DNA of 64,000 nucleotides. Origin: an uncultured Rhodospirillaceae bacterium. GTDB taxonomy: Bacteria > Pseudomonadota > Alphaproteobacteria > Rhodospirillales > Casp-alpha2. Both the position numbers and the translations under genes were made by a program. This document shows positions 7,324 through 55,375 of this stretch, in pieces. The notes beneath the pieces are model-generated. The model made no database searches, had not been told where the DNA came from, and saw only the letters and a list, made by a program, of their open reading frames with translations. The stretch is taken from positions 1 through 64,000 of the forward strand of contig CAJWCU010000015.1 in the NCBI GenBank assembly GCA_913030825.1, read 5' to 3'. How positions within the stretch are numbered: position 1 is the first letter of the stretch; each line of letters begins with the position of its first letter.

Positions 7324-7343
7324 CAATTCTGAAAACAGAATTG
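7324..7343. repeat. Inverted repeat with 8-base arms upstream of acyl-CoA dehydrogenase
   Basis: CAATTCTG (7324-7331), AAAA spacer, CAGAATTG (7336-7343). The arms are perfectly complementary and the right arm overlaps the left half of the neighbouring GTATAC operator. It could be a second operator or a weak stem; no function can be assigned. Confidence 0.6.
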
Positions 7344-7351
7344 TATACAAT
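7340..7351. promoter_or_regulatory. ATTGTATACAAT operator (site 1, perfect palindrome)
   Basis: Perfect 12-bp palindrome ending 8 bases before the ATG at 7360. It is the best of five related sites in this window and has the form expected of GntR-family (FCD subgroup) operators. Its right half contains TACAAT (7346-7351), a five-of-six match to a -10 hexamer, which would place transcription start at or next to the start codon. Confidence 0.7.
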
Positions 7352-7359
7352 CCGCCATC

Positions 7360-8517
7360 ATGAATTTCGAACTCACCGAAGAACAGCGTCTGTTTCAGGA
7401 CGCGGTACGCGCCTTTGCCCGGGACAACCTGGCCGAAGGGGCGCTTGAACGTGCCCATCAGGGGGAATATCCCCGTGATGTGGCCAAGCTCATGGCCGAA
7501 AACGGCCTGTTGGGCATCACCATCCCGGAAGAGGACGGCGGCCAGGGCGGCAGCCTGATGGACGCGGTCATCGCGATCCAGGAAGTCGCCATGCATTGCC
7601 CGCGTTCCGCCGACGTGATCCAGGCCGGAAGCTTCGGCGCGATCCGCGTGCTGGCGGCCTACGGCACGCCGGATCAGAAGGAACGGTATTTGAAGCCGCT
7701 GCTGGCCGGTGAAAGCCTGATCGCCGTCGGCATGACGGAGCCGGACGCCGGATCGGCGGTGACGGATCTGCGCACCACCGCGACGCCGGACGGCGATGGC
7801 TTGCGGATCAACGGTCAGAAATGCTTCACCAGCCATTCGCCGGAAGCCGACGTATTTTTGGTCTACGTGCGCTACGGCCCGGGCGTGGACGGCATCGGAT
7901 CGGTCCTGATCCCGCGCGACGCGGAAGGCTTGGAATTCGGGCAGGCGACGCCGTTCTTGGGCGGCGACGACTGGGCGCCGCTGTTCTTCACCGACCTTTA
8001 CGTGCCGCCGGAAAACATCCTGCTGCGCGAAGGCGGCTTCAAGAAACAGATCGCCGGATTCAATGTGGAACGCATCGGCAATACGGCGCGGTCCATCGCA
8101 CTCGGCCGTCTGGCCTTCGAGACGGCCCGCGAACATGCTCTGACCCGCAAGCAGTTCGACCGCCCCTTGGCCGAATTCCAGGGCCTGCAATGGAAGTTCG
8201 CGGAAATGCAGATGAAGCTCGACGCCGGGCAGCTGCTGCTCTACCGCGCCGCCGTGAATGCCGACAACGGCTTTCCGTCGGCCCAGGAAACGGCCATCGC
8301 CAAGGCGTTCTGTAACGAAGCCGGGCATTGGATTTCGTCGGAAGCCCTGCAGGTCATGGGCGGCACCGGCTACAGCCAGGAAACGCTGGTCGAATATTGC
8401 TTCCGCCGCACGCGCGGCTGGATGATCGCCGGCGGTTCCATTGAAATCCTCAAGAACCGGATCGCCGAGGGCGTGTTCGACAAGCGTTTCTCGCAACGTC
8501 CGCCCAGAGCGAAATAA
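7360..8517 (+). CDS. Acyl-CoA dehydrogenase family flavoprotein
   Basis: 385-residue acyl-CoA dehydrogenase with the usual N-terminal helical, central beta (MTEPDAGSAVTDL, residues ~127-139) and C-terminal helical domains; oxidises an acyl-CoA to the enoyl-CoA with FAD. The C-terminal motif reads IAGGSIEI where many family members have YEGTxxI, so G358 sits where the medium-chain enzyme has its catalytic Glu; the base must come from elsewhere, as in isovaleryl- or long-chain types. No Shine-Dalgarno sequence precedes the ATG, and a -10-like hexamer lies at leaderless distance. It is followed 33 bases later by an acyl-CoA synthetase, its likely functional partner. Confidence 0.93.
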   Translation: MNFELTEEQRLFQDAVRAFARDNLAEGALERAHQGEYPRDVAKLMAENGLLGITIPEEDGGQGGSLMDAVIAIQEVAMHCPRSADVIQAGSFGAIRVLAAYGTPDQKERYLKPLLAGESLIAVGMTEPDAGSAVTDLRTTATPDGDGLRINGQKCFTSHSPEADVFLVYVRYGPGVDGIGSVLIPRDAEGLEFGQATPFLGGDDWAPLFFTDLYVPPENILLREGGFKKQIAGFNVERIGNTARSIALGRLAFETAREHALTRKQFDRPLAEFQGLQWKFAEMQMKLDAGQLLLYRAAVNADNGFPSAQETAIAKAFCNEAGHWISSEALQVMGGTGYSQETLVEYCFRRTRGWMIAGGSIEILKNRIAEGVFDKRFSQRPPRAK

Positions 8518-8550
8518 GAAGACAAGAAGACCCGAGTAAAGGACCGAACC

Positions 8551-10647
8551 ATGCCCGATACCAATGACCGGACGGCCACCCCGGCGAGCCTCGCCGACGC
8601 CCTGTTCACGCCGCGCGGCGTCGCCCTGATCGGCGCGTCCGGCGACCCGACGAAGAATTCCGGGCGCCCGCAGCGGTTCCTAAAAGCGCACGGGTTCACG
8701 GGCGAGGTCTATCCCATCAATCCCGGCCGTGACGAGGTCCAGGGGGTCAAGGCATATAAGAGCGTCGCAGACGTGCCGGGCCCGGTCGATCACGCCTTCG
8801 TCATGGTTCCGGCCAAATTCGTCGAGGACGCGATCCGCGACTGCGGGGCCAAGGGCGTGCGGGTCGCGACGATCTATTCCGACGGCTTCGCCGAAACCGG
8901 CGACGACGGCCGCAAGATGCAGGAACGCCTGGTCGCTACGGCGCGCGAGGTTGGCGTGCGTCTGATCGGCCCGAATTCCATGGGCGTCATTCATCCGGCT
9001 TCCAGCCTGACGTTGTCGGTCAACGCCGTCCTGGAAATGGAAGGCATCAAGCCGGGCGGTCTGTCGCTGATTTCCCAAAGCGGCACGATCCTGGGCACGC
9101 TGTTGTCGCGTGGTGCGGCGCGGGGCATCGGGTTTGCCCGCATGATCGGCGTCGGCAACGAAAGCGATCTGGCGGTCGGCGAGTTGGTCGATCTGCTGGT
9201 CGACGACCCGGCGACCAAGTCGATCCTGTTGTTCCTGGAAGCCGTGCGCGATGCGGACAAGCTGGCCGCCGCCGCGCGCCGCGCCTACGACGCAGGCAAG
9301 CCGGTCATTACCTATAAGCTAGGCCGGTCGGAAGCGGGCCGGGAATTGGCGCTCAGCCACTCCGGCGCCATCGCCGGCCCGGCCAAGGCCGCCGACGCCT
9401 TCTTCCAGGCCCATGCCATCGCCCGCGTCGAAATGCTGGAAGGTTTGCTGGAAGCGCCGCCCTTGTTCATGGGCCATCCGCCGCCCAAGGGTAAACGCGT
9501 CGCCGTGGTCACCACCACGGGCGGCGGGGCGGCTTCCGTCGCCGACCGCTTAGGAGCCTTGGGTGCCACACTGGCCCCGGCGCCGGAAGCGGTGCGCACG
9601 GCACTGCGAGAGCACGGACTGGAAATCGGTCGTGGGCCGCTGGTCGACTTGACCATGGCCGGCACGCGGGAAGGGGTCTACGGCGCGGCACTGGAACACC
9701 TTTTGGCCGACGACGGCATCGACGCCGTCGTGACGGTTGTCGGCTCGTCCGGGCAGTTCAAACCCGAGTTGGCCGTGGCGCCCATCGTCGAAAAGGCCGC
9801 TGGGTCGGACAAACCTGTCGCCGCCTTCATCGCCCCCCAGGCGGACAAGTCGCTTGCGTTGTTGCAGGAGGCGGGCATCGCCAACTTCCGCACGCCCGAA
9901 GCCTGCGCCGACGCCGTCATGGCGTTTCTCAATCGCCAGGCGCCGCGCCCCGTTCCCGCCGTGGACGATCACGCCAAGGAAAAGGCCGAGGCGATCCTGT
10001 CCCGGGCCCCCGCCGCCAACTTGAACGAACGCGAAGCCTCGCTGGTGTTCGAGGCCCTGGGCCTGCCCATCGCCCCGGCCCAGGTCATCAAGGGGGCGGG
10101 CGAGCCCGTCGCCGTGCCGTTCCCCGTGGCGGTCAAGGTCCTGGCGCGCGACATCCAGCACAAGACCGAACGCGGCCTGGTGCGCCTAGGCATCGACAGC
10201 CCTGAAGAGCTCTGGCAGGCCGCCGAGGAATTGCTGGCGCTCGCCCCCGAGGCCGAAGGCATCCTGGTTCAGTCCATGGCCCAGGGCGTGATGGGCGAGC
10301 TGATCGCCGGCTACCGCCTGGACGCCGAAGCCGGGCCCATCGTCCTGGTCGGGCCGGGCGGTATTCTGGCCGAGGTCTATGACGACGCGGCCGTGCGCAC
10401 GGCGCCCATCGACGCCGCCGAAGCCATGGAAATGATCGAAGAGGTCAAGGGTCTGGCGCCGATCCGGGGGTTCCGTGGCAAGCCGCCGGGCGATCTGAAG
10501 GCATTGGCCGAGGCATTGGCGGCGTTGTCGACGCTGGCGGTTCTCGACGCCTCCGTGCTGGAGGCCGAAATCAATCCGCTGATGGTGCGCGAAGACGGCG
10601 CGGGTGTCGTCGCCGTCGATGCCTTGCTGAGGCTCAAATCCAGCTAA
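8551..10647 (+). CDS. ADP-forming acyl-CoA synthetase (CoA-binding/ATP-grasp fusion)
   Basis: 698-residue single-chain NDP-forming acyl-CoA synthetase of the AcdA-AcdB fused type. Order: CoA-binding Rossmann domain (~15-130, GVALIGASGDPTK), succinyl-CoA-ligase-like domain (~150-290) with the SHSGA segment around H270 that carries the phospho-histidine in this family, a second ligase domain (~315-450) and an ATP-grasp domain (~470-695) ending NPLMVREDGAGVVAVDALL. It interconverts an organic acid, CoA and ATP with acyl-CoA, ADP and phosphate. It follows an acyl-CoA dehydrogenase in the same direction with an AAAGGA site before the ATG at 8551, so it probably activates the acid that the dehydrogenase then oxidises. 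Confidence 0.88.
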   Translation: MPDTNDRTATPASLADALFTPRGVALIGASGDPTKNSGRPQRFLKAHGFTGEVYPINPGRDEVQGVKAYKSVADVPGPVDHAFVMVPAKFVEDAIRDCGAKGVRVATIYSDGFAETGDDGRKMQERLVATAREVGVRLIGPNSMGVIHPASSLTLSVNAVLEMEGIKPGGLSLISQSGTILGTLLSRGAARGIGFARMIGVGNESDLAVGELVDLLVDDPATKSILLFLEAVRDADKLAAAARRAYDAGKPVITYKLGRSEAGRELALSHSGAIAGPAKAADAFFQAHAIARVEMLEGLLEAPPLFMGHPPPKGKRVAVVTTTGGGAASVADRLGALGATLAPAPEAVRTALREHGLEIGRGPLVDLTMAGTREGVYGAALEHLLADDGIDAVVTVVGSSGQFKPELAVAPIVEKAAGSDKPVAAFIAPQADKSLALLQEAGIANFRTPEACADAVMAFLNRQAPRPVPAVDDHAKEKAEAILSRAPAANLNEREASLVFEALGLPIAPAQVIKGAGEPVAVPFPVAVKVLARDIQHKTERGLVRLGIDSPEELWQAAEELLALAPEAEGILVQSMAQGVMGELIAGYRLDAEAGPIVLVGPGGILAEVYDDAAVRTAPIDAAEAMEMIEEVKGLAPIRGFRGKPPGDLKALAEALAALSTLAVLDASVLEAEINPLMVREDGAGVVAVDALLRLKSS

Positions 10648-10756
10648 CGCTGCCTTGAGGTAAGCTTACTTTGAACCGTCATGGGTTCGGCGTATCCTGA
10701 TCGGCATAACATCGCCGAAAGGGGCCGATTGGGCCATCCAAGGGAGGGAGGCACCC

Positions 10757-11125
10757 ATGACCACGCAGAACAAATCCATCGAACGCCGCCACGCCAACGC
10801 GCGGATGAGCCAAGTCGTCGCCACGGCCGATACGGTGTATCTGGCCGGACAGGTCGCCTCGGGCGATGCCCGGGGTGCCAGCGTGGCCGAACAGACGCGG
10901 GAAATCCTCGGCAATATCGACGCCTACCTGGCCGAAATGGGCACGGACAAATCCAATCTTCTGCAGGCGCAGATCTGGATCACCGACATGGCCAACTTCG
11001 CCGAAATGAACGAGATCTGGGACGCCTGGGTCGATCCCGAGGCCAAGCCCGTGCGCGCCTGTGTCCAGGCGATCCTGGCGGCGCCGGATCTTAAGGTCGA
11101 AATCATGGTCACGGCGGCCCGCTGA
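10757..11125 (+). CDS. RidA-family deaminase-like protein
   Basis: 122-residue RidA/YER057c/UK114-family protein. The conserved arginine is seen in KPVRACVQAILA and the family core in TVYLAGQVASG and LGNIDAYLAEMG. RidA proteins are trimeric and hydrolyse reactive enamine/imine intermediates from PLP enzymes; members of neighbouring subgroups act in specific catabolic pathways. A GGGAGGGAGG site at 10742-10751 precedes the ATG. It stands between the acyl-CoA synthetase and a phosphodiesterase-like gene and may belong to a catabolic operon. The subgroup is not resolved. Confidence 0.88.
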   Translation: MTTQNKSIERRHANARMSQVVATADTVYLAGQVASGDARGASVAEQTREILGNIDAYLAEMGTDKSNLLQAQIWITDMANFAEMNEIWDAWVDPEAKPVRACVQAILAAPDLKVEIMVTAAR

Positions 11126-11173
11126 GCCGGTCCGGCTCCTTCGTCAAATATATTAAGAGAAGAGACGACATCC

Positions 11174-16634: not shown

Positions 16635-16931
16635 TCAGATATGGACGGTGGTCATTTGGATTTGGCGATCTTCGATTAAGTCGGCGCCGGCGTCGCGGAA
16701 CTTGATGTAGTGGGGTTCCTCCCGGTGCGAATCCAACGCGGCTTCGTTGGTATAGACCTCATAGAAGAAGAAGGTGTCCGGATCGTCCTTCGCGGTCATG
16801 ACGCGGAATTCGTGGCAGTTGGGTTCATCCCGGCGGGCCGCGACGGCGTTCTCCATGATGATCGGCATGAAGTCCTTCCCTTTGCCGGGCTTGCATTTGA
16901 TGGTGACGATGATGGCGAATTTTCCGGCCAT
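16635..16931 (-). CDS. Antibiotic biosynthesis monooxygenase (ABM)-family protein
   Basis: 98-residue ferredoxin-like-fold dimer protein of the ABM/quinol monooxygenase family ([49 protein letters not shown]). Small members oxidise quinols or act as stress-related monooxygenases without cofactor; others have no demonstrated activity. The start at 16931 is fixed by GGAGGAA just upstream (minus strand); the frame continues to 17027 but would cross the operator region. Divergent from the RraA-type gene, with a GTATAC-type operator (site 2) between them, and followed by a strong terminator. Confidence 0.82.
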
Positions 16932-16986: not shown

Positions 16987-16998
16987 ATTGTGTACAAT
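16987..16998. promoter_or_regulatory. ATTGTGTACAAT operator (site 2)
   Basis: Eleven of twelve bases match the ATTGTATACAAT palindrome; the arms ATTGT/ACAAT are intact. It lies between the divergent ABM gene (55 bases upstream of its ATG) and the RraA-type gene (78 bases upstream), so one bound regulator could control both directions. Confidence 0.65.
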
Positions 16999-17076: not shown

Positions 17077-17565
17077 ATGAGCGACAAGCCGTTGCTGACG
17101 GCGGACCTATGCGACGACCATCCGGACGTTCGCGTCTGTCAAATGACTTTCACCGATTTCGCCAAACGCACCCACTTCCACGGCCAGATCACGACCTTTT
17201 CCACGTTCGAGGACAACAAAGGTATCCGCGAAATCCTTGCCGAAGGCGGCAAGGGTCGGGTTCTGGTCGTCGATGGCCGGGGCTCGCGCCGCCGCGCTTT
17301 GACAGGCGGCAACATCGCCGCCGAGGCCGAACAGTATGGCTGGGAAGGTCTGGTCTATAACGGTTGCATCCGCGACCAGCACGAATTCACCGACCTAGAC
17401 CTTGGCGTCAAGGCGATGGCTGCGACGCCCATGCGCCCGCGCACGGACGGCATTGGCCTGAAGGACGTGGATGTGAATTTCGGGGGGATCGTGATCCGCC
17501 CCGGTGAATGGCTCTATGCCGACCTGGACGGCGTTATCGTATCGGAGAAGAAACTTCATGACTGA
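17077..17565 (+). CDS. RraA-family protein, probable 2-oxoacid aldolase
   Basis: 162-residue protein with the length and order of E. coli RraA (FEDNKGIREIL, GRVLVVDGRGSRRRALTGGNIA, VNFGGIVIRPGEWLYADLDGVIVSE). Unlike E. coli RraA, which as I recall has AVRQ, this protein has R99-D100 in NGCIRD, the pair needed for metal binding and catalysis in 4-hydroxy-4-methyl-2-oxoglutarate/oxaloacetate aldolases of the same family. I therefore favour an aldolase or decarboxylase over an RNase E regulator. A GGAGGA site precedes the ATG. Its last 8 bases overlap the next gene, implying translational coupling with the hydroxy-acid dehydrogenase. Confidence 0.8.
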   Translation: MSDKPLLTADLCDDHPDVRVCQMTFTDFAKRTHFHGQITTFSTFEDNKGIREILAEGGKGRVLVVDGRGSRRRALTGGNIAAEAEQYGWEGLVYNGCIRDQHEFTDLDLGVKAMAATPMRPRTDGIGLKDVDVNFGGIVIRPGEWLYADLDGVIVSEKKLHD

Positions 17566-18667
17566 CAAACAACAAGACCTGCCCGCGGAGATCATTGAGA
17601 AGTTCCAGGTCCTGCATGAATTCGCCAAGGCGGCGAAGAACAACCTGAATAAGAACATCTACGACTATGTCTTCGGCGGCGCCGAAACCGAAACCACGGT
17701 CAGGCGCAACCGCATGGCCATCGAAACCCATGCCCTGCGTCCGCGCGTCATGCGCGACGTTTCGAAAATGAACGCCGGGGTCGACCGTTTCGGCATGCGG
17801 CTCAAGCTGCCGGTCTGCCTGGCGCCGATCGGATCGCTTCAGCAGATTTCGTCCGGCGGCGGTGCCGCGGCGGCCTCGGGCGCCGGTCGCTTCGGCTGTG
17901 CCCATATGCTGTCGAGCGTCTGCGAGCCCGGCATGGATGCCGTGGCCGAGGCCGCGCCGGACGCCTGCCGTATCTTCCAGCTTTACGTGCGCGGCGACGA
18001 GGACTGGGTCGACGACAAGGTCCGCCAGGCCCAGGACCTGGGCTACAAGGCCTTTGCCGTGACTATCGATCTGGACGCCTATTCGCGGCGTGAACGGGAT
18101 ATCTCGAAGCGCTTCGTCACCGCCGGCCGGCAGGCCGCCGTGGGCGAGACCCATCAGGCCCGATTCGACTGGTCCGATGTCGATCGGATCAAGAAGATCT
18201 GCAAGATCCCCTTCATCCTGAAGGGCATCGCGACGGCCGAGGATTCCAAGCTGGCCGTCGAGCACGGCGTTGATGTGGTCTATGTCTCGAATCATGGCGG
18301 GCGGCAGCTCGACCATGGCCGCGGCGGGCTCGACGTGCTGCCGGAATGCGTGGAGGCTGTGAACGGTCAGGCGCAGGTCTGGATCGACGGCGGCTTCATG
18401 CGCGGCACGGACATCGTCAAGGCGATGGCATTGGGCGCCGACATGGTCGGTCTGGGTCGTCTGCAGGCGCTGGCGCTGGCCGCCGGCGGCGAGGACGCCC
18501 TGGTGCGTATGCTGGAGATCCTGGAGCATGAGGTGCAGATCGCCCTCATGCTACTGGGCGTCACCGGCTATGACGAACTGGGCCCCGAGTATGTTTATAA
18601 GGAGCCCTTGGCGGTTGCGGACCCGCACCAGTTCTCGGGCTTCCCGCTGCTCGGCGAGGGGTACTGA
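17558..18667 (+). CDS. FMN-dependent alpha-hydroxy-acid dehydrogenase/oxidase
   Basis: 369-residue TIM-barrel flavoprotein of the lactate/glycolate oxidase family. Family motifs are the N-terminal YDYVFGGAETETTVRRNR, LPVCLAPIGSLQ, FQLYVRGDEDW, the FMN/active-site segment LKGIATAEDSKLA and the catalytic-histidine motif YVSNHGGRQLDHG. It oxidises an L-2-hydroxy acid to the 2-oxo acid, passing electrons to oxygen or the quinone pool. The ATG at 17558 overlaps the stop of the RraA-type gene, so the two proteins are made together; the aldolase and oxidase could act on consecutive hydroxy-oxo acid intermediates. A bidirectional terminator follows. Confidence 0.9.
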   Translation: MTDKQQDLPAEIIEKFQVLHEFAKAAKNNLNKNIYDYVFGGAETETTVRRNRMAIETHALRPRVMRDVSKMNAGVDRFGMRLKLPVCLAPIGSLQQISSGGGAAAASGAGRFGCAHMLSSVCEPGMDAVAEAAPDACRIFQLYVRGDEDWVDDKVRQAQDLGYKAFAVTIDLDAYSRRERDISKRFVTAGRQAAVGETHQARFDWSDVDRIKKICKIPFILKGIATAEDSKLAVEHGVDVVYVSNHGGRQLDHGRGGLDVLPECVEAVNGQAQVWIDGGFMRGTDIVKAMALGADMVGLGRLQALALAAGGEDALVRMLEILEHEVQIALMLLGVTGYDELGPEYVYKEPLAVADPHQFSGFPLLGEGY

Positions 18668-18778: not shown

Positions 18779-19660
18779 CTAGATCTTCGGCTCGTTGCCT
18801 TCCTCGATGTATTTGTAGACCAACGAGATGTCCGAGCCGGGCCGGTCTTTTTCGGCGCCTTCGAAGATCTGGGTCACCAGGTTGCCGATGGAGTTCGGCG
18901 TGCCGGCCTTCGTTGAGTTTTCGAAGAACAGGCGCACGTCCTTGGCCAACAGCTTGTTGGTAAAGCCGGCGTCCCAGGTGCCGGACATGATGCGGTTGGG
19001 CAGCTTGTCCAGGGTCGCCGTGTTCATGCCGGTCGAGACGTTGACCACGTCCAGGATCGCCTGTGCCTCAAGGCCCTGGGACAGGCCGAACAGCATGGCT
19101 TCGGACGAGGCGGCGAGAGCGGTCGCCGACAGGAAGTTGTTGAGCATCTTGACGACCTGGCCCTGGCCCGGTTCCTCGCCGACGTGGAACGGATTCTTGG
19201 CGAATGCCTTGAAGACTTCCAAGTGATCGTCATAGACCGCCTTCGGCCCGCCGACCATCACGGCGATGGTGGCGTTGATGGCGCCGCGGCGGCCGCCTGA
19301 GACGGGTGCATCCATATAGGTGATCTTGGCGTCCTTCAGGATGCCGTCGATTTCCTGGGCCGCCGCCGTGCCGATGGTCGACAGGTCGATGACGACCGAG
19401 GTCTTGCGGTCGTTGACCTGGACGATTTCCTTGGCGACGGCAGTGCAGATCGGGCCGTCGGGCAGGGACAGGAAAACCGTATCCGCATTGGCCAACACGC
19501 CGGCCAGCGAATCATGGGCGATGGCCTTTTCATGGGCGCGTTCTTTGGTGCCGGCGGCGTCATAGACGTGGACCGGCAGACCAGCCTTGGCGATGTTTTC
19601 GGCCATCGGGCCGCCCATTGCGCCGAGGCCGATGAAACCGTAGGTGCGTTGTTCAGCCAT
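18779..19660 (-). CDS. 3-hydroxyisobutyrate-dehydrogenase-family NAD(P)-dependent oxidoreductase
   Basis: 293-residue beta-hydroxyacid dehydrogenase with an N-terminal dinucleotide motif GFIGLGAMGGPMAENIAKAG, the substrate-binding block DAPVSGGRRGA and the catalytic lysine block VVKMLNNFLSATALAASSEA. Relatives oxidise 3-hydroxyisobutyrate, tartronate semialdehyde or gamma-hydroxybutyrate; specificity is not obvious. Its ATG at 19660 lies three bases after the stop of the CMD-family gene, with the GGAGG site inside that gene's last codons, so the two are coupled. It lies in the leftward arm of a module that has an operator in front of each arm. Confidence 0.9.
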   Translation of the reverse strand: MAEQRTYGFIGLGAMGGPMAENIAKAGLPVHVYDAAGTKERAHEKAIAHDSLAGVLANADTVFLSLPDGPICTAVAKEIVQVNDRKTSVVIDLSTIGTAAAQEIDGILKDAKITYMDAPVSGGRRGAINATIAVMVGGPKAVYDDHLEVFKAFAKNPFHVGEEPGQGQVVKMLNNFLSATALAASSEAMLFGLSQGLEAQAILDVVNVSTGMNTATLDKLPNRIMSGTWDAGFTNKLLAKDVRLFFENSTKAGTPNSIGNLVTQIFEGAEKDRPGSDISLVYKYIEEGNEPKI

Positions 19661-19663: not shown

Positions 19664-20086
19664 TCAATCCTCCAGATCGTGTTTGACGTCGATCGTGGAG
19701 ATATCGATGCCTTCTTCGTTGAACACTTCGCGGGCCAGGCGGAAGGCTTCGATGCCCGCGGGAATGCCGCAGTAGATGGCGACCTGGGTGCAGATTTCGC
19801 GCAGGTCCGCGACGGTCAGGCCATTGTTGATGGCGCCGCGGAAATGCAGGCGGAATTCGTGCGGCCGGTTGAGCGCGGCCAGCATGCCTAGGTTGAGAAT
19901 CGAACGGTCGCGCTTGGACAGGATTCCTCGGCCCCAGCTGCCGCCCCAGCAATACTCAGTCACGAATTCCTGGAAGCCGCGATTGAAATCGTCGGCGCCG
20001 CCCATGGATTTATCGACATAGGCATCGCCCAGCACTTCGCGCCGGTATTTCATCCCCATGTCGTGCATTTTAGTCGAGTTCGTCAT
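19664..20086 (-). CDS. Carboxymuconolactone decarboxylase (CMD)-family protein
   Basis: 140-residue helical CMD/AhpD-fold protein (FNRGFQEFVTEYCWGGSWGR, LGMLAALNRPHEFRLHFRGAINNGL, EICTQVAIYCGIPAGIEAFRLA). The decarboxylase group usually acts on 4-carboxymuconolactone in the protocatechuate 3,4-pathway, but many catabolic clusters carry a CMD protein of unknown role. The CxxC of AhpD-type peroxidases is absent. The start at 20086 follows AGGGAGAA; in-frame sequence up to 20122 is less likely. A GTATAC-type operator (site 3) is 37 bases upstream. Confidence 0.87.
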   Translation of the reverse strand: MTNSTKMHDMGMKYRREVLGDAYVDKSMGGADDFNRGFQEFVTEYCWGGSWGRGILSKRDRSILNLGMLAALNRPHEFRLHFRGAINNGLTVADLREICTQVAIYCGIPAGIEAFRLAREVFNEEGIDISTIDVKHDLED

Positions 20087-20122: not shown

Positions 20123-20134
20123 TTTGTATACATT
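20123..20134. promoter_or_regulatory. TTTGTATACATT operator (site 3)
   Basis: The core TTGTATACA is intact and ten of twelve bases match ATTGTATACAAT. It lies 37 bases upstream of the CMD-family start codon on the leftward arm of the 16.6-20.1 kb module. Confidence 0.6.
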
Positions 20135-42478: not shown

Positions 42479-43390
42479 TTACTTGCCGTATTCGGGCAGT
42501 ACCGTACGGGCGACCGACTGGTCGAGCGCTTCGTAATCGTAATAGGCCAGGGTGTCGTACTGTTCGCCGCGCGACATCACTTTGTCCATGAAGCCTTCGG
42601 TGCCGTCATGTTCCTTCATATGGCCGTAGAGGTCCTGGAACAGTTTGGCGGCGGCGCGCATGGAAGTCGCCGGCCAGATCACGATGTCGAAGCCCATGTC
42701 CTCGAACTCCTGGCCGGTGAAGAAGGGCGTGCGGCCATATTCGGTCATGTTGGCCATCTTCAGGCCCGGGACCTTCTTGGCGTATTCCACATGGTCCTCG
42801 GCCGACGGCAGGCCGTCGGGGAAGGACACGTCGGCGCCGGCTTCACGGTACAGGTTGGACCGCTTGATGGCGGCGTCCAGGCCTTCGACGCCGGCGGCGT
42901 CCGTACGCGCGATGATGACCAGATCGGACGACGCCTTCTTGGCGGCGGCGATCTTGGTCGCCGCTTCTTCCGGATCGACCAGGCGCTTGTCGTTCAAGTG
43001 GCCGCATTTCTTGGGCAGCATCTGATCCTCGATATGGATCGCGCCGGCGCCGGCCAATTCCATTTCCTGCACCACGCGCATGGCGTTCAGGGTGCCGCCG
43101 TAGCCGGTGTCGCCGTCGACGATCAAGGGCAGGTCCGTGGTCCGCGACACGCTTCGCACGACGCCGCACATTTCATCCAGCGTCATGATGCCCAGGTCCG
43201 GCAGGCCCAAGGAGGCCGTTACCGCGCCGCCCGAGATATAAAGCGCGTCGAACCCGGCTTGTTTGGCGATCATGCCCGCGAAGGCGTTATGCGCCCCCGG
43301 CACGCGGAGAATTTCCTTGCGGTCCAAAAGTTCGCGCAGTCGTGCGCCGGCGGGGCGTTTGTCGCGGGCGTTGCCTTCAAGCCAAGTCAT
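42479..43390 (-). CDS. Isocitrate lyase/PEP mutase family lyase, methylisocitrate lyase (PrpB)-like
   Basis: 303-residue TIM-barrel lyase with the catalytic loop KKCGHLNDK, the metal-binding VDGDTGYGG and the partner block HIEDQMLPKKCGH. The Cys in KKCGH is the general acid/base of isocitrate and 2-methylisocitrate lyases and separates them from PEP mutase. Such enzymes split 2-methylisocitrate to pyruvate and succinate, or other 2-hydroxy diacids such as 2,3-dimethylmalate. No prpC is nearby, so the substrate is open. GGAGGACTCCC precedes the ATG at 43390. Operator site 4 lies 47 bases upstream. Confidence 0.87.
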   Translation of the reverse strand: MTWLEGNARDKRPAGARLRELLDRKEILRVPGAHNAFAGMIAKQAGFDALYISGGAVTASLGLPDLGIMTLDEMCGVVRSVSRTTDLPLIVDGDTGYGGTLNAMRVVQEMELAGAGAIHIEDQMLPKKCGHLNDKRLVDPEEAATKIAAAKKASSDLVIIARTDAAGVEGLDAAIKRSNLYREAGADVSFPDGLPSAEDHVEYAKKVPGLKMANMTEYGRTPFFTGQEFEDMGFDIVIWPATSMRAAAKLFQDLYGHMKEHDGTEGFMDKVMSRGEQYDTLAYYDYEALDQSVARTVLPEYGK

Positions 43391-43437: not shown

Positions 43438-43449
43438 ACTGTATACAAT
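43438..43449. promoter_or_regulatory. ACTGTATACAAT operator (site 4)
   Basis: Eleven of twelve bases match ATTGTATACAAT. It sits between the divergent PrpB-like lyase (47 bases from its ATG) and the DOPA-dioxygenase-like gene (66-96 bases from its candidate starts), so both may be controlled. Confidence 0.65.
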
Positions 43450-43545
43450 TTCATGCCAAATGCCGCACCCGTTTAATTCGATCGGCGTTGCAAAAACCGC
43501 GGCGGTTTGCCATCTATGAAGGACATCCTTTTCCGAAAGTCGCCC

Positions 43546-43926
43546 ATGACGGACCACGGTCCAACGTCCATTTCCGAATTCCACGCCCACATCTATTTCG
43601 AGGGCGCGACGGCGCGCGACCATGCCTATGCTCTGCGCGCGGCCTTGCTGTCGGAGTTCGGTGGAACGCCGGGCGGCATTCGGGAAGAGCCGGGCGGCCC
43701 GCATCCGCTGCCCGATATCCTGGTGCATATTCCGGTCGACCGCTTCGCCAACGCGGTGCCGTATCTGATGCTGAACCGGGCGGGGTTGAGCATTCTGGTC
43801 CATCCCGAAACCGGATCGCCCGTGGCCGACCATACGGAAAACGCCCTTTGGCTGGGCGCACCCTTGGCGATCGATGTCGAATTTCTGAAAGCGTTCGAGA
43901 AACGCGCGGCGCAACGGACCGCGTGA
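43546..43926 (+). CDS. DOPA 4,5-dioxygenase family protein
   Basis: 126-residue (from ATG 43546; an in-frame ATG at 43516 is also possible) member of the small DOPA 4,5-dioxygenase-like family. Conserved His-containing blocks are EFHAHIYFEG, GGPHPLPDILVHIP and LSILVHPETGSPVADHTENALWLG. Relatives open catechol rings at the extradiol position in plants, fungi and bacteria; many bacterial ones are uncharacterised. It is divergent from the PrpB-like lyase across operator site 4 and 31 bases before the TauD-like oxygenase, likely one transcript. Confidence 0.8.
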   Translation: MTDHGPTSISEFHAHIYFEGATARDHAYALRAALLSEFGGTPGGIREEPGGPHPLPDILVHIPVDRFANAVPYLMLNRAGLSILVHPETGSPVADHTENALWLGAPLAIDVEFLKAFEKRAAQRTA

Positions 43927-43957: not shown

Positions 43958-44992
43958 ATGATCGAATATCCCCTGACCCCCGTAACCGAAAAATCCGCCT
44001 GGACCGCCGCCGACATGGCCGCCGACCGTAGTTGGACCCGCCATCTTTCCGGCGACGAGATCGGCGAACTTGAGCGGGTCGCCCGCGAGCTTCTGGATGC
44101 CGGAAAGCGGGCGCCGAACTTCGGTCTTGCCGACGTTCAATCGGCGACGCTCAAATCCCTGGCCGATTGGATCGCCAACGAACTGGAACACGGCCGCGGT
44201 TGTGCGGTGCTTCGCGGGCTGGAGGTCGACCGCTACGCACGGGACGAGATCGAAGCCATGTACTGGGCGCTGACGTTGCTGTTCGCCGTGCCCATGCATC
44301 AGAACCCGGACGGCGACTTGATTGGCGAGGTCACGGACAAGGGGCTCGATTACAACGATCCGCTGATCCGAGGCTACAAGACGAAACAGAAACTGTTCTT
44401 CCACTGCGACGGGATGGATCTGGTCAGCCTGCTTTGTCTGCAGCCGTCCATGTCGGGCGGCGAAAGCCAGATCGCGTCGAGCATGGCCGTATATAACGAA
44501 ATCCTCGCCACTCATCCCGAATACCTGCCGCCGCTGTTGGAAGGTTTTCATTTCAACCTGCGCGGCGAAGGCGAAGCGGGAGAGACCCATCCGGTAACCC
44601 GTCACAAGGTGCCGGTCTATAGCTGGTGCGACGGACGGCTCAGCTGCCGCTATCTGCGCAAGGCCATCGTCGAAGGGCAGCAATTCGTGGGCGAGCCGGT
44701 TTCCGATTTGGCCCTGGCGGCGCTCGACTACATGCAGGAGCTTTGCGTCAGCGACAAATTCCGCTTCGACATGGACTTCCAGCCGGGCGACATTCAGATC
44801 CTCAACAACTACGTGACCTTACATTCGCGGGGGGCGTTCGAGGATTGGCCGGAACCCGATCGTAAGCGCAACCTGCTGCGGATCTGGATGAACATGCGGG
44901 AAGGCGCCCGCCAACTCGATCCGCAGTTCGCGGACCACTACAACATGGGCCCGCGCACGCCGATGCGTCTGCGCGACGACCGCGCCGCCTGA
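43958..44992 (+). CDS. TauD/TfdA-family 2-oxoglutarate-dependent dioxygenase
   Basis: 344-residue Fe(II)/2-oxoglutarate oxygenase of the TauD fold. The triad is seen as H-x-D in KLFFHCDGMDLVS and the distal His in NNYVTLHSRGAFEDW; the 2-oxoglutarate-binding Arg is in KRNLLRIWMNM. It is longer than TauD (~280) and matches the subgroup annotated as TauD/TfdA-like or gamma-butyrobetaine-like. Substrate unknown. It sits directly behind the DOPA-dioxygenase-like gene and may act on an aromatic or carboxylate substrate of the same route. Confidence 0.87.
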   Translation: MIEYPLTPVTEKSAWTAADMAADRSWTRHLSGDEIGELERVARELLDAGKRAPNFGLADVQSATLKSLADWIANELEHGRGCAVLRGLEVDRYARDEIEAMYWALTLLFAVPMHQNPDGDLIGEVTDKGLDYNDPLIRGYKTKQKLFFHCDGMDLVSLLCLQPSMSGGESQIASSMAVYNEILATHPEYLPPLLEGFHFNLRGEGEAGETHPVTRHKVPVYSWCDGRLSCRYLRKAIVEGQQFVGEPVSDLALAALDYMQELCVSDKFRFDMDFQPGDIQILNNYVTLHSRGAFEDWPEPDRKRNLLRIWMNMREGARQLDPQFADHYNMGPRTPMRLRDDRAA

Positions 44993-48102: not shown

Positions 48103-48969
48103 ATGAGCACCCAATCCCGCGCCGATAAACTGCGCGAACTTCTCGAACGCCCCGGCTGCCGGACCCTGCCCGGCGTGTACGACGCCATGTCGGCCATGCT
48201 GGTCGAGCGCGCCGGTTTCGAGGCCGCCTTCATGACCGGCTTCGGCGTTTCGGCCGCCCGCATCGGCCTGCCCGACACGGGCCTGATCAGCTATGCCGAA
48301 ATGGTCGATCAGGGCCGCAATATGGCGGCGGTCACCTCGATCCCGATCATCGGCGACGGCGATACCGGCTTCGGCAACGCGATCAACGTCAAGCGCACGG
48401 TTCAGGGCTTCGCCCAGGCCGGGATGGCTTGCGTGATGATCGAAGACCAGGTCGCGCCCAAGCGCTGCGGTCATACCCGTGGCAAATCCATCGTGTCGCG
48501 CGAAGAAGCGTTTCAGCGCATTCAGGCAGCCGTCGACGCCCGTAACGACGGCGCCGACATCCTGATCATGGCGCGCACGGACGCCAACTGGACCGACGGC
48601 ATCGAAGAAGCGATCGACCGCTGCAACGCCTTCCGCGAGATCGGCGTCGACATCACCTTCCTGGAAGCGCCCTTGGACAAGGACCAGATGCGCCGCTACT
48701 GCAAGGAAGTGGACGGCCCCAAGATGGCCAACATGGTGGAACAGGGCGATACGCCTTATCTGCTCGAGGATGAATTGGGCGAGATGGGCTACAAGATCGC
48801 CATCTATCCGGTGTCCATGATGCTGGCCTCGATCAAGGCGATGGAAGGCGTGCTGGCCAACCTCAAGTCCGGCAAGAACCCGGAAGGTCAGATCACTTTC
48901 CCGGAACTGCGCGACATCGTCGGTTTCCCTGAATACTACGAAGCGGAAAAGAAATACGCCGCCGAGTAA
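48103..48969 (+). CDS. Isocitrate lyase/PEP mutase family lyase (second copy, PrpB-like)
   Basis: 288-residue relative of the lyase at 42.5 kb, with GDGDTGFGN (metal ligands), EDQVAPKRCGH (catalytic Cys loop) and MARTDANWTDG. The two are clearly different proteins, so they are paralogues rather than a recent duplication. The loop is that of Cys-containing lyases (2-methylisocitrate, dimethylmalate or related 2-hydroxydiacid cleavage), releasing pyruvate. The start at 48103 follows TTGGAGGAAG. It closes a rightward set with the hydroxyacid dehydrogenase and enoyl-CoA hydratase and is followed by a strong hairpin. Confidence 0.87.
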   Translation: MSTQSRADKLRELLERPGCRTLPGVYDAMSAMLVERAGFEAAFMTGFGVSAARIGLPDTGLISYAEMVDQGRNMAAVTSIPIIGDGDTGFGNAINVKRTVQGFAQAGMACVMIEDQVAPKRCGHTRGKSIVSREEAFQRIQAAVDARNDGADILIMARTDANWTDGIEEAIDRCNAFREIGVDITFLEAPLDKDQMRRYCKEVDGPKMANMVEQGDTPYLLEDELGEMGYKIAIYPVSMMLASIKAMEGVLANLKSGKNPEGQITFPELRDIVGFPEYYEAEKKYAAE

Positions 48970-50539: not shown

Positions 50540-50550
50540 CGTGCTATAAC

Positions 50551-50574: not shown

Positions 50575-50633
50575 ATCAGACCAACCAAAAACCAAGACCA
50601 AGAAAAACAAGACCAAGATTAGGAGAGGACAAC

Positions 50634-50972
50634 ATGAAGTTCGTCATGGCGGTGATCAAACCGCATAAGCTGGACGCCGTCCGCGAGGCGCTGGGCGCCA
50701 CCGGGGTCGAAGGCATGACCGTTTCCGAAGTGAAGGGCTACGGCCGCCAGCGCGGCCAGACGGAAATCTACCGCGGCGCCGAATATCAGGTGCATTTCCT
50801 GCCCAAGGTGAAGGTCGAGATCGCGGTCGCCGACGACAAGGTCGCCCAAGTCGTCGAGGCCATTCAGACCTCGGCCAACACGGGCAAGATCGGCGACGGC
50901 AAGGTCTTCGTCTACAACATGGACTCCGCCGTGCGCATCCGTACGGGCGAACAGGACAACGACGCCCTGTAA
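50634..50972 (+). CDS. glnK: Nitrogen regulatory protein P-II
   Basis: 112-residue PII signal protein with Y51 in the T-loop (RGQTEIYRGAEY) as the uridylylation site, and the B- and C-loop blocks TGKIGDGKVFV and AVRIRTGE. It binds ATP/ADP and 2-oxoglutarate and, when deuridylylated, plugs the ammonium channel. Pairing with the amtB gene just upstream favours GlnK over GlnB. GGAGAGGA precedes the ATG. Confidence 0.95.
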   Translation: MKFVMAVIKPHKLDAVREALGATGVEGMTVSEVKGYGRQRGQTEIYRGAEYQVHFLPKVKVEIAVADDKVAQVVEAIQTSANTGKIGDGKVFVYNMDSAVRIRTGEQDNDAL

Positions 50973-50999
50973 TCCAGGCCCGACGGAGCCCGCCCGACC

Positions 51000-51806
51000 A
51001 TGCCCAAGTTCGCCGCCAATATCGGCTGGCTGGCTCAGGAAGTGCCCATGCTGGAAAGATTCCAGTTGGTCCGCGACCTGGGCTTCGCCGCCGTCGAATG
51101 CCCGATCTCCGTCTACGACGAAGAGGCATCGGCGATGGGCGATGCGGCAAAGGCCGCCGGGGTCGAATTCGTTCTGTTCAATTCGCCGCCGGGCAGCGGC
51201 GACGATTCCTACGGCATCGCGGGGCTGAAGGGCAGGGAAGCGGAATTCCAGGACACCATCGGCACGGCCATCGACTACGCCAATGAACTGGGATCGACCT
51301 ACCTGCATGTCCTGTCGGGATGGCAATCCGGCGATTGGGACCGCGAGGAAGGCTTCGCAACCTTCATCGACAATCTGAAATGGGCCTGCCCGGTCCTGGC
51401 CGAGGCTGGGCTGGTCGCCCTGACCGAGCCCATCAACTGGCACGCCCGCCCGGGCTATCTGGTCGGCACGACGGCCGAGGGCCAGCGGGTGGTCGATGCC
51501 GTCAAATCGGCCGGCCACGACAACATCGGCATTCAGTACGATTTCCATAACGCCCAGATCATGGAAGGCGATTTGGCCCGGACCTTTGAGAAGCACCTGC
51601 CCGATATCCGTCACGTGCAGATCGCGGGCAACCCGGGCCGTTTGCCGCCGGACGAGGGGGAAATCAATTACCCGTTCGTCTTCGATCTTTGCGACCGGCT
51701 CGGTTTCGACGGTTGGTTGGGCTTGGAATACGCGGCGCACGACAAAACCCAGCCGGGGGCGACCAAGGCATCGCTTAAATGGGCGACGGCTTACGGGCTG
51801 GGTTAG
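51000..51806 (+). CDS. Hydroxypyruvate isomerase-like sugar-phosphate isomerase/epimerase family protein
   Basis: 268-residue TIM barrel of the AP-endonuclease-2 fold, Hyi group: start FAANIGWLAQEVPMLERF, a central TEPINWHARPGYLV (metal-ligand Glu), IGIQYDFHNAQIMEG (Asp/His ligands), HVQIAGNPGR and a C-terminal WLGLEYAAH (Glu ligand). Hyi converts hydroxypyruvate to tartronate semialdehyde in glyoxylate metabolism. No gcl or glxR is adjacent, although a 3-hydroxyisobutyrate/tartronate-semialdehyde reductase-like gene exists at 18.8 kb. It starts 27 bases after glnK, probably by chance. Confidence 0.85.
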   Translation: MPKFAANIGWLAQEVPMLERFQLVRDLGFAAVECPISVYDEEASAMGDAAKAAGVEFVLFNSPPGSGDDSYGIAGLKGREAEFQDTIGTAIDYANELGSTYLHVLSGWQSGDWDREEGFATFIDNLKWACPVLAEAGLVALTEPINWHARPGYLVGTTAEGQRVVDAVKSAGHDNIGIQYDFHNAQIMEGDLARTFEKHLPDIRHVQIAGNPGRLPPDEGEINYPFVFDLCDRLGFDGWLGLEYAAHDKTQPGATKASLKWATAYGLG

Positions 51807-51816
51807 GCCCGGCCTT

Positions 51817-52566
51817 TTAAGCGGCCGGGGCGTTCGCGCCCAGGAACATGCGGATGTGCCGCAGGGCCAGTTCGATCTTACGGTCGTTTTCTTTCCACGG
51901 ATACAGGCTGACCTGTGAATTGGGGGCGAGCAAAGCCGCTTCCATCGCCGTCGCGTAAGGATGGGACGGAATGTCGTCGGGCAAGATTAGCACCGGCGTC
52001 TGGCAGTTGCGCACGAAATCGCGGTCGACTGTGAACACGAAATCCGCGCGCTTCGTGTACATATTGTTCAGATAGTCCTCGACCATCTGCTGCGTGATCT
52101 CCGGCCGCCGTTCGCGGAAGACGGGGGCCCAGCCCTTGATGTTGTTGTTGTAGAAATTATTGGGGTGGCTCGAGGTATAGCCGCTGGGATGCACCAGGGT
52201 CGCCGCGACCACGCGGTCGCCCGCGTGCTTGATCAGGTTCCAGATCATCGGCCCGCCGATGCAGAACCCGAGGACCATGAATTTATCGACGCCCAGGTGA
52301 CCCAGCAGCGCCAATTGGTCGTCGACCAGGGCGTCCCAGGGGCGATCGACATCCAATGGCCCTTCCGTCTGGCCGCCGTTGGCGTTGCGGATATCGAGGG
52401 CGATGACGCGGTATCTGTCGCTGAACGCCTCCAGCGGATCGAAGGCATGCTTGGCCATGCCGGCGATGGTCGCGTTCAGGCCGCCGCCGGGCAGCACCAG
52501 TAGGGGAAAGCCGGAGCCGGCTTCCTCGTAATGAATTTTGACGTCGCCGTTCTCGAAGATGGGCAT
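51817..52566 (-). CDS. Alpha/beta hydrolase with cysteine nucleophile position
   Basis: 249-residue alpha/beta-hydrolase fold: oxyanion region VLPGGGLNATI, nucleophile elbow GFCIGG with C102 where most hydrolases have Ser, and cap region with YNNNIKGWAPVFRERRP. Cys nucleophiles occur in dienelactone hydrolases (GYCLGG). I cannot find the usual catalytic His near the C-terminus (YPWKENDRKIELALRH), so the triad is incomplete or unusual. GGAGG lies upstream of the ATG at 52566. It is immediately upstream of, and transcribed with or after, the aconitase gene, 49 bases away. Confidence 0.8.
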   Translation of the reverse strand: MPIFENGDVKIHYEEAGSGFPLLVLPGGGLNATIAGMAKHAFDPLEAFSDRYRVIALDIRNANGGQTEGPLDVDRPWDALVDDQLALLGHLGVDKFMVLGFCIGGPMIWNLIKHAGDRVVAATLVHPSGYTSSHPNNFYNNNIKGWAPVFRERRPEITQQMVEDYLNNMYTKRADFVFTVDRDFVRNCQTPVLILPDDIPSHPYATAMEAALLAPNSQVSLYPWKENDRKIELALRHIRMFLGANAPAA

Positions 52567-52614
52567 GGTCGGTCCTCCCTATTGCATCGACCGTGAAGCG
52601 GAATGCGAAACGCG

Positions 52615-55281
52615 TCAGGCGGCGTTGGCGCCCCTGAATTTCTCCAGCACGTAGGGCATGACCCCGCCGTTTTCGAACCAGGCGACCTCGCGTGCCGTAT
52701 CCAGACGGCAGAGAACGTCGGTCTCGATCACCGTGCCGTCCGGTTTGGTGAAGCGGACCTGCGCCGTCTGACCTGGGGTGATCGTGCCGCCGAAACCCGT
52801 GATGTCCACGGTCTCCGTGCCGTCCAGGCCCAGCGTCTTGCGCGTCGTCCCCGCCGGGAACTGCAGCGGCATGATCCCCATGCCGATCAGGTTCGAGCGG
52901 TGGATGCGCTCCACGTCCTCGGCGATGATCGCGCGCACGCCCAACAGGTGCGGGCCGCGCGCGGCCCCGTCGCGCGACGATCCGATGCCGTATCCGGTCC
53001 CGGCGACGACGACCGCCGGGCGGCCTTCGGCGGCGTAGCGCCCAGCCGCGTCGAAGATCGTCGTTTCCTCGCCTGTCGGCTGATACCGGGTCCAGCCGCC
53101 CCGCCGGTCCGGCGTCATTTCGTTCTGGACGTAGGGGTTGTTGAAGGCGCCGCGCAGAATGATTTCATGATTGGCGCGGCGTTGCAGGAAACCGGAATAG
53201 TCGGCGGGTGCGACGCCCTGGGCGGACAGATGATCGCCCGCGAGACTGCCTTCCTGAATGCGGCTGCCGGGTGAGATGTGGTCGGTGGTGACGTTGTCGC
53301 CCAGCATCGCCAGGATCGCGGCCCCTTCGACGCCCGGGAACGGTACCTGTCGGCGGGCCGTTTCCAGATAGGGCGGCTTGACGATGTAGGTGCTGTCGTC
53401 GTCCCAGTCGAAGGCTCCGGCGTCGCCCGGGTCGATGTCGTCCCACATGGGGTTTGCGTCCTCCGGGCGGGAGAGACGATCCAGGTAAAGGCCCTGGGTG
53501 ATGTTATCGCGGATCGCGGCCTCCACGTCCTGGGCGCTGGGCCAGATATCGGCGAGGTAAACCGGATTGCCGTCGGCGTCATCGCCCAGCGGCGCGGTGG
53601 TGATGTCTTTCAGAACCGTGCCGAGGATCGCATAGGCGACGACCAGCGGCGGCGAGCCCAGGTAGTTGAGTTTGACCTGCGGATGGACGCGGCCTTCGAA
53701 ATTGCGGTTGCCCGACAGCACGGCGGCGACGCTCAGGTTGTCGGCCTTGATCGCCTGGGCGATGTCGTCGCGTAGGCCGCCCGACCCGCCGCAGCAAGTC
53801 ATGCAGCCGTAGCCCGCAATGTGGAATCCCAATTCTTCCAGCGGTTCGATCAGGCCCGCCCGGGTCAGGTAGTCGCCGACCGCGCGCGATCCCGGCGACA
53901 GCGAGGTCTTGATCCAGGGCTTGGCCGTAAGACCCTTCGCCCGCGCGTTCTTCGCCAACAGACCGGCGGCGATCATGACACTGGGGTTCGAGGTATTGGT
54001 GCAAGAGGTAATCGCCGCGATGGCGAGGTCACCATCGTGAATCGGGCCGTCTGCCGGCTCGGCGGCGGGATCGCCGCCGTTTTCCCGGATCGCCGCTTCG
54101 GCGGATTGCGGCGCGGTGCTGAGGGGCACCCGGCTTTGCGGCAGTTTCGGCCCGGCAAGACAGGCTTCGACCTGGTCCAGGTCGAATTCGATGACGTCGG
54201 AATAGACGACCTCGGCCCTATCGTCGCGCCACATGCCTTGGGCCTTGGCATAGGCTTCGACCAAGGGCACCTGATCGCCGCGCCCGGTCAATTCCAGATA
54301 GGCGAGGGCTTTCTCGTCGATGGGGAAGAAGGCGACGCTGGCGCCGTATTCCGGCGCCATGTTCGAAAGCGTCGCCCGTTCCGGCAGGCTGAGGATGTCG
54401 AGGGCAGGGCCCGTGAATTCGACGAACTTCTGCACCACGCCGTAGTCGCGGAGCGCCTTGGTCAGGGACAGCACCAGATCGGTCGTCGTCGTGCCTTCGC
54501 GCATTCGGCCGGTAAGGCGCACGCCGACGACGTCGGGGATCAGCATGCTGACCGGCTCGCCCAGGGTCGCGGACAGGGCCTCGATCGCGCCGACGCCCCA
54601 GCCGAGAACGGCCAACGCGTTGATCATCGGGGTATGGCTGTCGCAGGCGAGCAGACTGTCGGGGAAGGCGACCGGCCCCAATTCGGGGTCGTCTTCCGAC
54701 CAGACGACGCGGGCCAGGCGTTCCAAGTTGATCTGATGGCAGATGCCTTGGCCCGGCGGCAGGACGCGCAGATTGCGGAAGGCCTTCTGCGCCCATTTGG
54801 CGACCCGGTAGCGTTCGGCGTTCTGTTCGAATTCGGCCGCCATGTTGCGGGTCAGGGCATCGGCCTGTCCGGCGACGTTGACGATCACCGAATGGTCGGT
54901 GACGTAATCCAGTGGCCGCACCGGATTGACCAGCGAAGGATCCTTGCCCATGGCCTGCATGTGTTCGCGCATGGCGGCCAAATCCGTCAGCAACGGGATG
55001 CCCGAAACGTCATGCACCATGATGCGGGTGGGGAAGAAGCTGATCTCCGCCGGGTTGCCCGCGTTGTCGACCCAGGTCTTGAAGGCTTCTGCGGTTTCCG
55101 TCGTCACCGTCTCGCCGTCTTCGTGGCGCAGGACGTTTTCCAACAGCACCTTCAGGCAATAGGGCAGGCGGGATGTGCCGGAAAGGCCGGCGGCCTCGGC
55201 CTGAGGCAGGCTGAAATAGGTGTAATCGGTGCCGTTCGCGGAAAGGGCCGCGCGCGCATTGAAGCTGTTGGGATGCGTCAT
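52615..55281 (-). CDS. Aconitase-family hydratase (AcnA/AcnD-like, divergent)
   Basis: 888-residue monomeric aconitase with [4Fe-4S] ligands C427 (SCTNTSNP), C493 and C496 (GYGCMTCCGG), NMAPEYGASVAFFPID, and swivel-domain block GSSRDGAARGPHLLGVRAIIAE. The standard AcnA reads GCTTCIGNSG and GSSRDWAAKG here, so substrate-proximal loops differ and the substrate may be 2-methylcitrate or another tricarboxylate. The start is MTHPNSFN at 55281 after an AGGACGAGG region; the frame to 55374 overlaps the operator. Operator site 5 is 83 bases upstream, grouping it with catabolic genes. Iron-sulfur, cytoplasmic. Confidence 0.9.
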   Translation of the reverse strand: MTHPNSFNARAALSANGTDYTYFSLPQAEAAGLSGTSRLPYCLKVLLENVLRHEDGETVTTETAEAFKTWVDNAGNPAEISFFPTRIMVHDVSGIPLLTDLAAMREHMQAMGKDPSLVNPVRPLDYVTDHSVIVNVAGQADALTRNMAAEFEQNAERYRVAKWAQKAFRNLRVLPPGQGICHQINLERLARVVWSEDDPELGPVAFPDSLLACDSHTPMINALAVLGWGVGAIEALSATLGEPVSMLIPDVVGVRLTGRMREGTTTTDLVLSLTKALRDYGVVQKFVEFTGPALDILSLPERATLSNMAPEYGASVAFFPIDEKALAYLELTGRGDQVPLVEAYAKAQGMWRDDRAEVVYSDVIEFDLDQVEACLAGPKLPQSRVPLSTAPQSAEAAIRENGGDPAAEPADGPIHDGDLAIAAITSCTNTSNPSVMIAAGLLAKNARAKGLTAKPWIKTSLSPGSRAVGDYLTRAGLIEPLEELGFHIAGYGCMTCCGGSGGLRDDIAQAIKADNLSVAAVLSGNRNFEGRVHPQVKLNYLGSPPLVVAYAILGTVLKDITTAPLGDDADGNPVYLADIWPSAQDVEAAIRDNITQGLYLDRLSRPEDANPMWDDIDPGDAGAFDWDDDSTYIVKPPYLETARRQVPFPGVEGAAILAMLGDNVTTDHISPGSRIQEGSLAGDHLSAQGVAPADYSGFLQRRANHEIILRGAFNNPYVQNEMTPDRRGGWTRYQPTGEETTIFDAAGRYAAEGRPAVVVAGTGYGIGSSRDGAARGPHLLGVRAIIAEDVERIHRSNLIGMGIMPLQFPAGTTRKTLGLDGTETVDITGFGGTITPGQTAQVRFTKPDGTVIETDVLCRLDTAREVAWFENGGVMPYVLEKFRGANAA

Positions 55282-55363
55282 GGATGCCTCGTCCTGGGAT
55301 GTTTCCGGCGTCGTTCGGGCGCGCCGTTCGGGGGGTGTTTCGGTCACTCTGAGGCAAAACGGC

Positions 55364-55375
55364 TTTGTATACAAT
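55364..55375. promoter_or_regulatory. TTTGTATACAAT operator (site 5)
   Basis: Eleven of twelve bases match ATTGTATACAAT and the inner TTGTATACAA palindrome is perfect. It lies 83 bases upstream of the aconitase start codon and 20 bases from the end of the LysR gene, so it most likely controls the aconitase. Confidence 0.7.

Follow-up and report, generated by a model that had tools for sequence, protein, structure and literature searches.

The 12-bp palindrome ATTGTATACAAT and its close variants, which are dispersed ahead of genes in the genome of an uncultured Rhodospirillaceae bacterium, very probably act as operators of a single GntR-type transcription factor of the FCD class (encoded at G000:C18:36404-37123) that serves approximately 30 units, most likely through repression released by a carboxylate. 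Here, "the window" denotes the whole 64,000-nt stretch analyzed (positions 1 to 64,000 of contig CAJWCU010000015.1), and the lineage is presumably marine, a label based on the isolate names of close relatives (Rhodospirillaceae/Rhodospirillales MAGs).

Palindromic sites in the window and the genome

A preliminary description had placed five palindromes in the window close upstream of start codons. We recovered all five, with 0, 1, 2, 1, and 1 mismatches to ATTGTATACAAT, at 9–83 bp from the called starts on the sides named there, and the genes reported beside them were backed by Pfam. Specifically, the perfect site at 7340..7351 (a palindrome, to which strand does not apply) precedes an acyl-CoA dehydrogenase gene (7360..8517, + strand), with a gene for a CoA-ligase-like protein next in order (8551-10647), and ATTGTGTACAAT at 16987..16998 (one mismatch) lies between divergent genes for an ABM-domain protein (16635..16931, − strand) and an RraA-like aldolase (17077..17565, + strand), the latter followed by an FMN-dependent dehydrogenase gene (17558-18667). 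The third site, TTTGTATACATT at 20123..20134, has two mismatches and an unbroken core, TGTATACA; it precedes a CMD-family gene (19664..20086, − strand) that has a 3-hydroxyisobutyrate-dehydrogenase-like gene behind it (18779-19660), and an ABC-transporter gene lies 214 bp away on the opposite side. Divergent genes also flank ACTGTATACAAT at 43438..43449 (one mismatch), namely, that of a PrpB-like lyase of the PEP-mutase/ICL type (42479..43390, − strand), which passed TIGR02317 (369.6 bits; cut-off, 354.4) but not NF008455, and a DOPA-dioxygenase-like gene (DOPA_dioxygen; 43516..43926, + strand) followed by a TauD-family gene (43958-44992). A further lyase gene of the PEP-mutase/ICL family (48103-48969) has no site in front.

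The fifth site, TTTGTATACAAT at 55364..55375 (one mismatch), had been assigned to a divergent aconitase gene. This orientation proved wrong: the gene for the AcnA-type aconitase (52615..55281), which is the second of the genome besides the copy at G000:C1:194026-196689, and the LysR gene (55396-56292) share the (−) strand, and the site lies in the gap that separates the LysR stop from the aconitase start. The LysR gene is itself divergent from genes for MmgE/PrpD, a MaoC/mesaconyl-CoA-hydratase-like protein, and an acyl-CoA dehydrogenase, and this region (55396-59524), which adjoins the second aconitase gene, looks like a separate acid-degradation cluster.

Since the window has a G+C content of 62.4%, an A+T-rich palindrome of this form is rare, and dinucleotide shuffles of the window gave a mean of 0.40 sites (largest, 3), with five or more in 0 of 100 shuffles. 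A chance origin was ruled out by these shuffles together with the genome-wide counts, which reached 29 sites at ≤1 mismatch (0 for the reversed pattern), 55 at ≤2 mismatches (10 for the reversed pattern), and 29 copies of the core TGTATACA (8 in the control). Every one of the 29 sites at ≤1 mismatch falls between genes, with a start no more than 300 bp downstream, and 17 have divergent genes on either side; 28 of the 29 core copies are likewise intergenic, and the coding fraction of the window is 0.911. Thus, the earlier proposal of a dispersed regulon held, with approximately 30 sites ahead of genes throughout the genome, as did the expected enrichment in promoter regions. Four of the 29 sites fall in the window (0.47 expected; Poisson, 0.0014), which was, however, chosen for its sites.

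Genes were called by a simple home-made codon-based script, whose start positions may deviate by a few codons and which miscalled genes at some G006 loci (G006 being a complete genome used for comparison). For the surroundings, we took the 34 sites of the source genome that have ≤1 mismatch or an intact core; one of these, L060 (core TGTATACA, three mismatches), lies inside a called gene and therefore provided no target gene for the G006 comparison. The conserved block spans the 12 bases, with little beyond, and all 12 are kept as a palindrome.

Placement varies from 9 to 293 bp before starts. The ATG follows the 7340 site after 8 bases (5 in G006), and if the palindrome also serves as a −10 box, the mRNA may thus lack a leader. 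On both strands, the palindrome reads TACAAT, which resembles the −10 box consensus, and this likeness, along with tight spacing to some starts (such as the 9 bp at 7340 and the 16 bp ahead of tcuA), would suit a promoter element rather than an operator. That explanation is highly improbable, given the conservation of all 12 bases as a palindrome, the lack of a clear −35 at a fixed distance, the presence of only ~30 copies per genome, and the absence of such a set from most relatives. Around the sites (130 gene sides and 40 other sides), neither a −35 nor a −10 at a fixed distance was clear, and TTG at a spacing of 18 was slightly raised on both kinds of side (0.077 and 0.10, respectively). 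For the sites as operators, the placement before starts fits repression; promoter occlusion receives no support from site geometry, as no fixed promoter distance was found.

A candidate regulator with its own site

All 22 GntR-domain matches in the genome lie on contigs other than that of the window, which rules out a GntR regulator in the window. The LacI (5111-6160) and LysR genes were confirmed by Pfam (the scan covered 40 of the 59 called genes of the window), in agreement with the earlier suggestion that the reader of the sites is unlinked. Our candidate, hereafter the C18 protein, is encoded behind a 4HBT thioesterase gene and opposite a gene for a TAXI/NMT1-type binding protein. An N-terminal GntR winged helix (PF00392; 64.1 bits, with a cut-off of 27) and a C-terminal FCD domain (PF07729; 93.6 bits, with a cut-off of 24.3) place it in the FadR/FCD subfamily, and the GT..AC core of ATTGTATACAAT, with two bases between, has the form of a FadR/FCD operator. 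Against PhnR_burk (TIGR03338), the protein scored 127.4 bits, below the cut-off of 271.5.

Many FCD proteins share operators of this shape, so the motif alone cannot name its binder; the main argument for the C18 protein is a site near its own gene that is kept despite strong divergence of the protein. Specifically, 25 of 48 family genomes have an orthologue (E ≤ 1e-40), and those in other genera are only 42–60% identical to the C18 protein. A site upstream of the orthologue or its gene string is present in 25/25 genomes at ≤2 mismatches (23 at 0–1 and 2 at two mismatches). The self-site is ~530–550 bp off, before a small gene, in the genus of the source genome (8 genomes), 84–132 bp from the regulator in genus g14 (9 genomes), and 94 and 135 bp off, with two mismatches, in G009 and G034. 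Six of the 25 genomes have a tcuA-like gene between the site and the regulator, and the two of these genes that were scanned pass NF006130, not TIGR02485. At L085:1383-1404 and L131 (G031), two palindromes overlap, offset by 10 bases (one helical turn), in front of the regulator or gene string. The preliminary description had attributed the sites to a GntR/FCD protein and proposed a search for such a gene with a site of its own; the C18 gene, in all 25 orthologue genomes, is one, and the family assignment is very probable as judged from sequence.

The motif also co-occurs with the C18 gene. Perfect sites are present in 23 of the 25 genomes with an orthologue versus 5 of the 23 without (Fisher, 8.6e-7, ignoring relatedness), a count to which the self-site and the relatedness of the genomes contribute in part. 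With the genus of the source genome left out, the numbers are 15/17 versus 5/23, and in genera holding both states (g2, g3, g5, g8, and g14), they are 14/16 versus 2/8. The relationship fails in g3, where G009 has an orthologue and no perfect site and G033 a perfect site and no orthologue; in G034, an orthologue is present and a perfect site absent.

The form of the operator is shared more widely. In the literature on which our GntR/FCD comparisons are based (PMC9765439, PMC7797058, PMC4494728, and PMC13086498), FCD proteins often use GT..AC palindromes, with two-base spacing in some FadR-subfamily groups, PrpR included. It might therefore be that several paralogous FCD regulators share the operator and divide the sites among them, in which case there would be no single regulon. 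The use of the same 8-base core by Atu1419 (see below) and the 2-mismatch sites within ~175 bp upstream of four other GntR genes (L019, L023, L026, and L032) are compatible with this idea. We nonetheless consider it unlikely, since only 1 of the 22 GntR loci, C18, has a site at ≤1 mismatch within ~1.5 kb, the sites are mostly far from any GntR gene, and perfect-site counts track the presence of one orthologue. The same restriction to C18 makes another GntR gene less likely as the sole reader. A different perfect palindrome, ATTGCATGCAAT (L067:5369-5380; G000:C12:81368-81379), lies 51 bp upstream of another GntR gene and is perhaps the sister operator of a paralogue.

Comparison with characterized proteins supports the C18 protein as the predicted binder. 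Atu1419 of Agrobacterium fabrum is described as an FCD regulator of hydroxycinnamate degradation that binds ATGTATACAT and zinc, with Ser44, Arg45, Thr46, and Arg49 as DNA contacts and Asn137, His141, His192, and His214 as zinc ligands (PMC7797058). In our alignment, S48, R49, T50, and R53 of the C18 protein line up with the former and N134, H138, H182, and H204 with the latter; the four ligand positions, with Asp/Asn plus three His, form a predicted metal site. Seven of these residues (S48, R49, T50, R53, H138, H182, and H204) are invariant in 14 sequences, and N134 is nearly so. ATGTATACAT shares the core TGTATACA with the sites described here, whereas the inner 10-mer is bounded by A..T there and by T..A here, and the targets differ, with three palindromes in one region described for Atu1419 (PMC7797058). 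A regulator of another family might read the sites, with the C18 gene merely one of its targets, and the GntR unit is itself preceded by a site, as a mere target would be. This is very unlikely: both the motif form and the contact residues fit an FCD protein, and the C18 gene is the one constant target in 25/25 genomes despite changing neighbors.

The second relative of the C18 protein considered here is PrpR/PmiR (PA0797) of Pseudomonas aeruginosa, described as a GntR-FCD repressor of the 2-methylcitrate operon whose own gene has a predicted operator, ATTGTCGACAAT, 84 bp ahead of it (PMC9765439). The best PDB match of the C18 protein (only ~88 bits), 7xp0, is a record that names only a probable regulator; we take it to be PrpR/PmiR because R54, L67, R68, and V80 of PA0797, as numbered in that source (PMC9765439), all recur in the chain with the same shift of 14 positions. 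Both systems have a 12-bp palindrome with identical outer arms and targets of the PrpB and PrpD families. They differ in the site centre (AT here and CG in ATTGTCGACAAT), in the neighbors of the regulator gene (4HBT and TAXI genes here, not prp genes), and in the ~30 sites found here, in a genome with no TIGR01800 match above the cut-off. Among open-licence papers, we did not find ATTGTATACAAT, nor TTGTATACAA together with GntR, and TGTATACA with GntR occurred in the Atu1419 paper only.

Conservation and target genes of the regulon

In a comparison of 61 genomes, those of the source genus (8 genomes, own included) contain 19–31 sites at ≤1 mismatch versus 0–3 control matches, and a further genus, g6, has 24. 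Other family members have 1–10 and order members 0–4, often near the control counts. Counterparts before orthologous genes were found in G006 for 24 of the 34 own sites, all 24 among the 29 at ≤1 mismatch, and they include the sites at 7340, 16987, and 43438; 4 of the 29 G006 sites have no counterpart among own sites. The 24 pairs share a site identity of 0.98, which is biased upward because the G006 loci were picked for carrying the motif, and 20-base flanks of 0.58–0.61 identity. For the remaining 10 of the 34, no counterpart was counted in G006, where the 20123 site still has a 2-mismatch form, one that is kept in 7 of the 8 genomes of the genus, own included. The asparagine synthase site (L041) was not counted as conserved because its G006 match lies inside a gene. 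Six G006 sites seemed intragenic by the gene caller (L113, L114, L117, L119, L124, and L125): by tblastn, the own-genome targets start beside the site at L114, L117, L124, and L125, the L119 site is inside the gene, and L113 has no counterpart. The L128 site lies inside a short called frame, and tblastn places a tcuA-like gene after it; L136 has no start within 320 bp, and the L158 site is inside a called gene.

Within the genus, the 55364 site was found only in the source genome and G007. The other genomes have a single aconitase match of 50–52% identity, and G001 has none at the threshold used. As the source genome and one near relative alone, within the genus, have the second aconitase copy, it is not a conserved regulon member.

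Flanking genes with a start ≤320 bp from a site number 54, of which 47 were scanned with Pfam (all but those of L064-L066 and one of L043). Among the 47 are four TauD-family genes, two PrpB-like lyases, one MmgE/PrpD gene, and tcuA with tcuB behind it, as well as two acyl-CoA dehydrogenases, a class III CoA-transferase, two class II aldolases, IlvD/Edd, FAH-family, and PhyH genes, MFS and EmrAB-type efflux genes, and a TPP-enzyme/UbiX pair. For others, such as a rhomboid protease, an asparagine synthase, and a PDZ protease, a connection to carboxylates is not apparent. At L057:3722-4966, split sulfopyruvate/phosphonopyruvate-decarboxylase-like subunits, with NCBIfam scores below the cut-offs, lie behind a site kept in G006. 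The tcuA-tcuB pair is preceded by a perfect site at 16 bp; TcuA passes both NCBIfam models, and TcuB passes TIGR02484, not NF011607. The candidate regulator here is a GntR protein, whereas Salmonella TcuR, the regulator of tricarballylate genes, is LysR-type. Of the six MmgE/PrpD genes in the genome, coordinates place three in gene strings that begin with a site: the one on C8, the one on C1 that follows a TauD gene, and C15:73088, which follows an enoyl-CoA hydratase gene. The canonical 2-methylcitrate cycle is unsupported, since citrate/methylcitrate synthase (TIGR01800) had no genome match above the cut-off (best, 339.9 of 421.3 bits).

In genus g14, sites fetched from four genomes separate tcuA-like from MmgE/PrpD genes, the regulator from an amidase, and, in a relative of the 43438 locus, a PrpB-like lyase from a TauD-family gene; others precede further MmgE/PrpD genes or an EmrA/HlyD gene. 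A site also precedes a 68–71% identical relative of the 43438 PrpB-like lyase in three g14 genomes. The g14 set looks like an older core, to which the genus of the source genome added. The initial idea that the enzymes act in one pathway was not supported by the range of targets, from TauD to efflux to rhomboid protease, and one linear pathway was rejected as the targets are too diverse, which implies that the switch serves more than one route. The data support a broad regulon that expanded in one genus.

Proposed control and its significance

We propose that a C18 dimer binds the 12-bp ATTGTATACAAT near the promoters of approximately 30 units and its own unit, and that these units serve mostly the uptake, efflux, and breakdown of organic acids. 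The protein would keep them repressed in the absence of a small tri- or dicarboxylate, whose binding in the metal-containing FCD pocket would free it from the DNA. By analogy with PrpR/PmiR, derepression by a carboxylate is the most likely mode; judging by the title of a paper on it, PmiR reportedly senses 2-methylisocitrate. The PrpB-, PrpD-, aconitase-, and TcuAB-like targets, together with the TauD family, suggest a tri- or dicarboxylate inducer, and such a theme for the regulon is plausible.

In other genera, perfect sites number 0–6 per genome (41 in 17 genomes with the orthologue), in comparison with 7–12 in the genus of the source genome, and these counts illustrate how a locally used regulator gained a wide role. 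It is possible, if doubtful, that in one marine genus an FCD regulator with a local role, over a small tricarballylate/methylcitrate-like gene set, evolved into a global tricarboxylate sensor that controls approximately 30 units jointly, among them an undescribed route joining TauD-family oxygenases and a PrpB-like lyase with PrpD-like and TcuA-like enzymes. FCD-operator systems of this kind are already known; the regulon is new. It assigns an operator, a candidate regulator, and approximately 30 target units in an uncultured marine lineage of the Rhodospirillaceae type, where the genes are otherwise annotated singly, and the shared switch may guide which orphan enzymes respond to related substrates.
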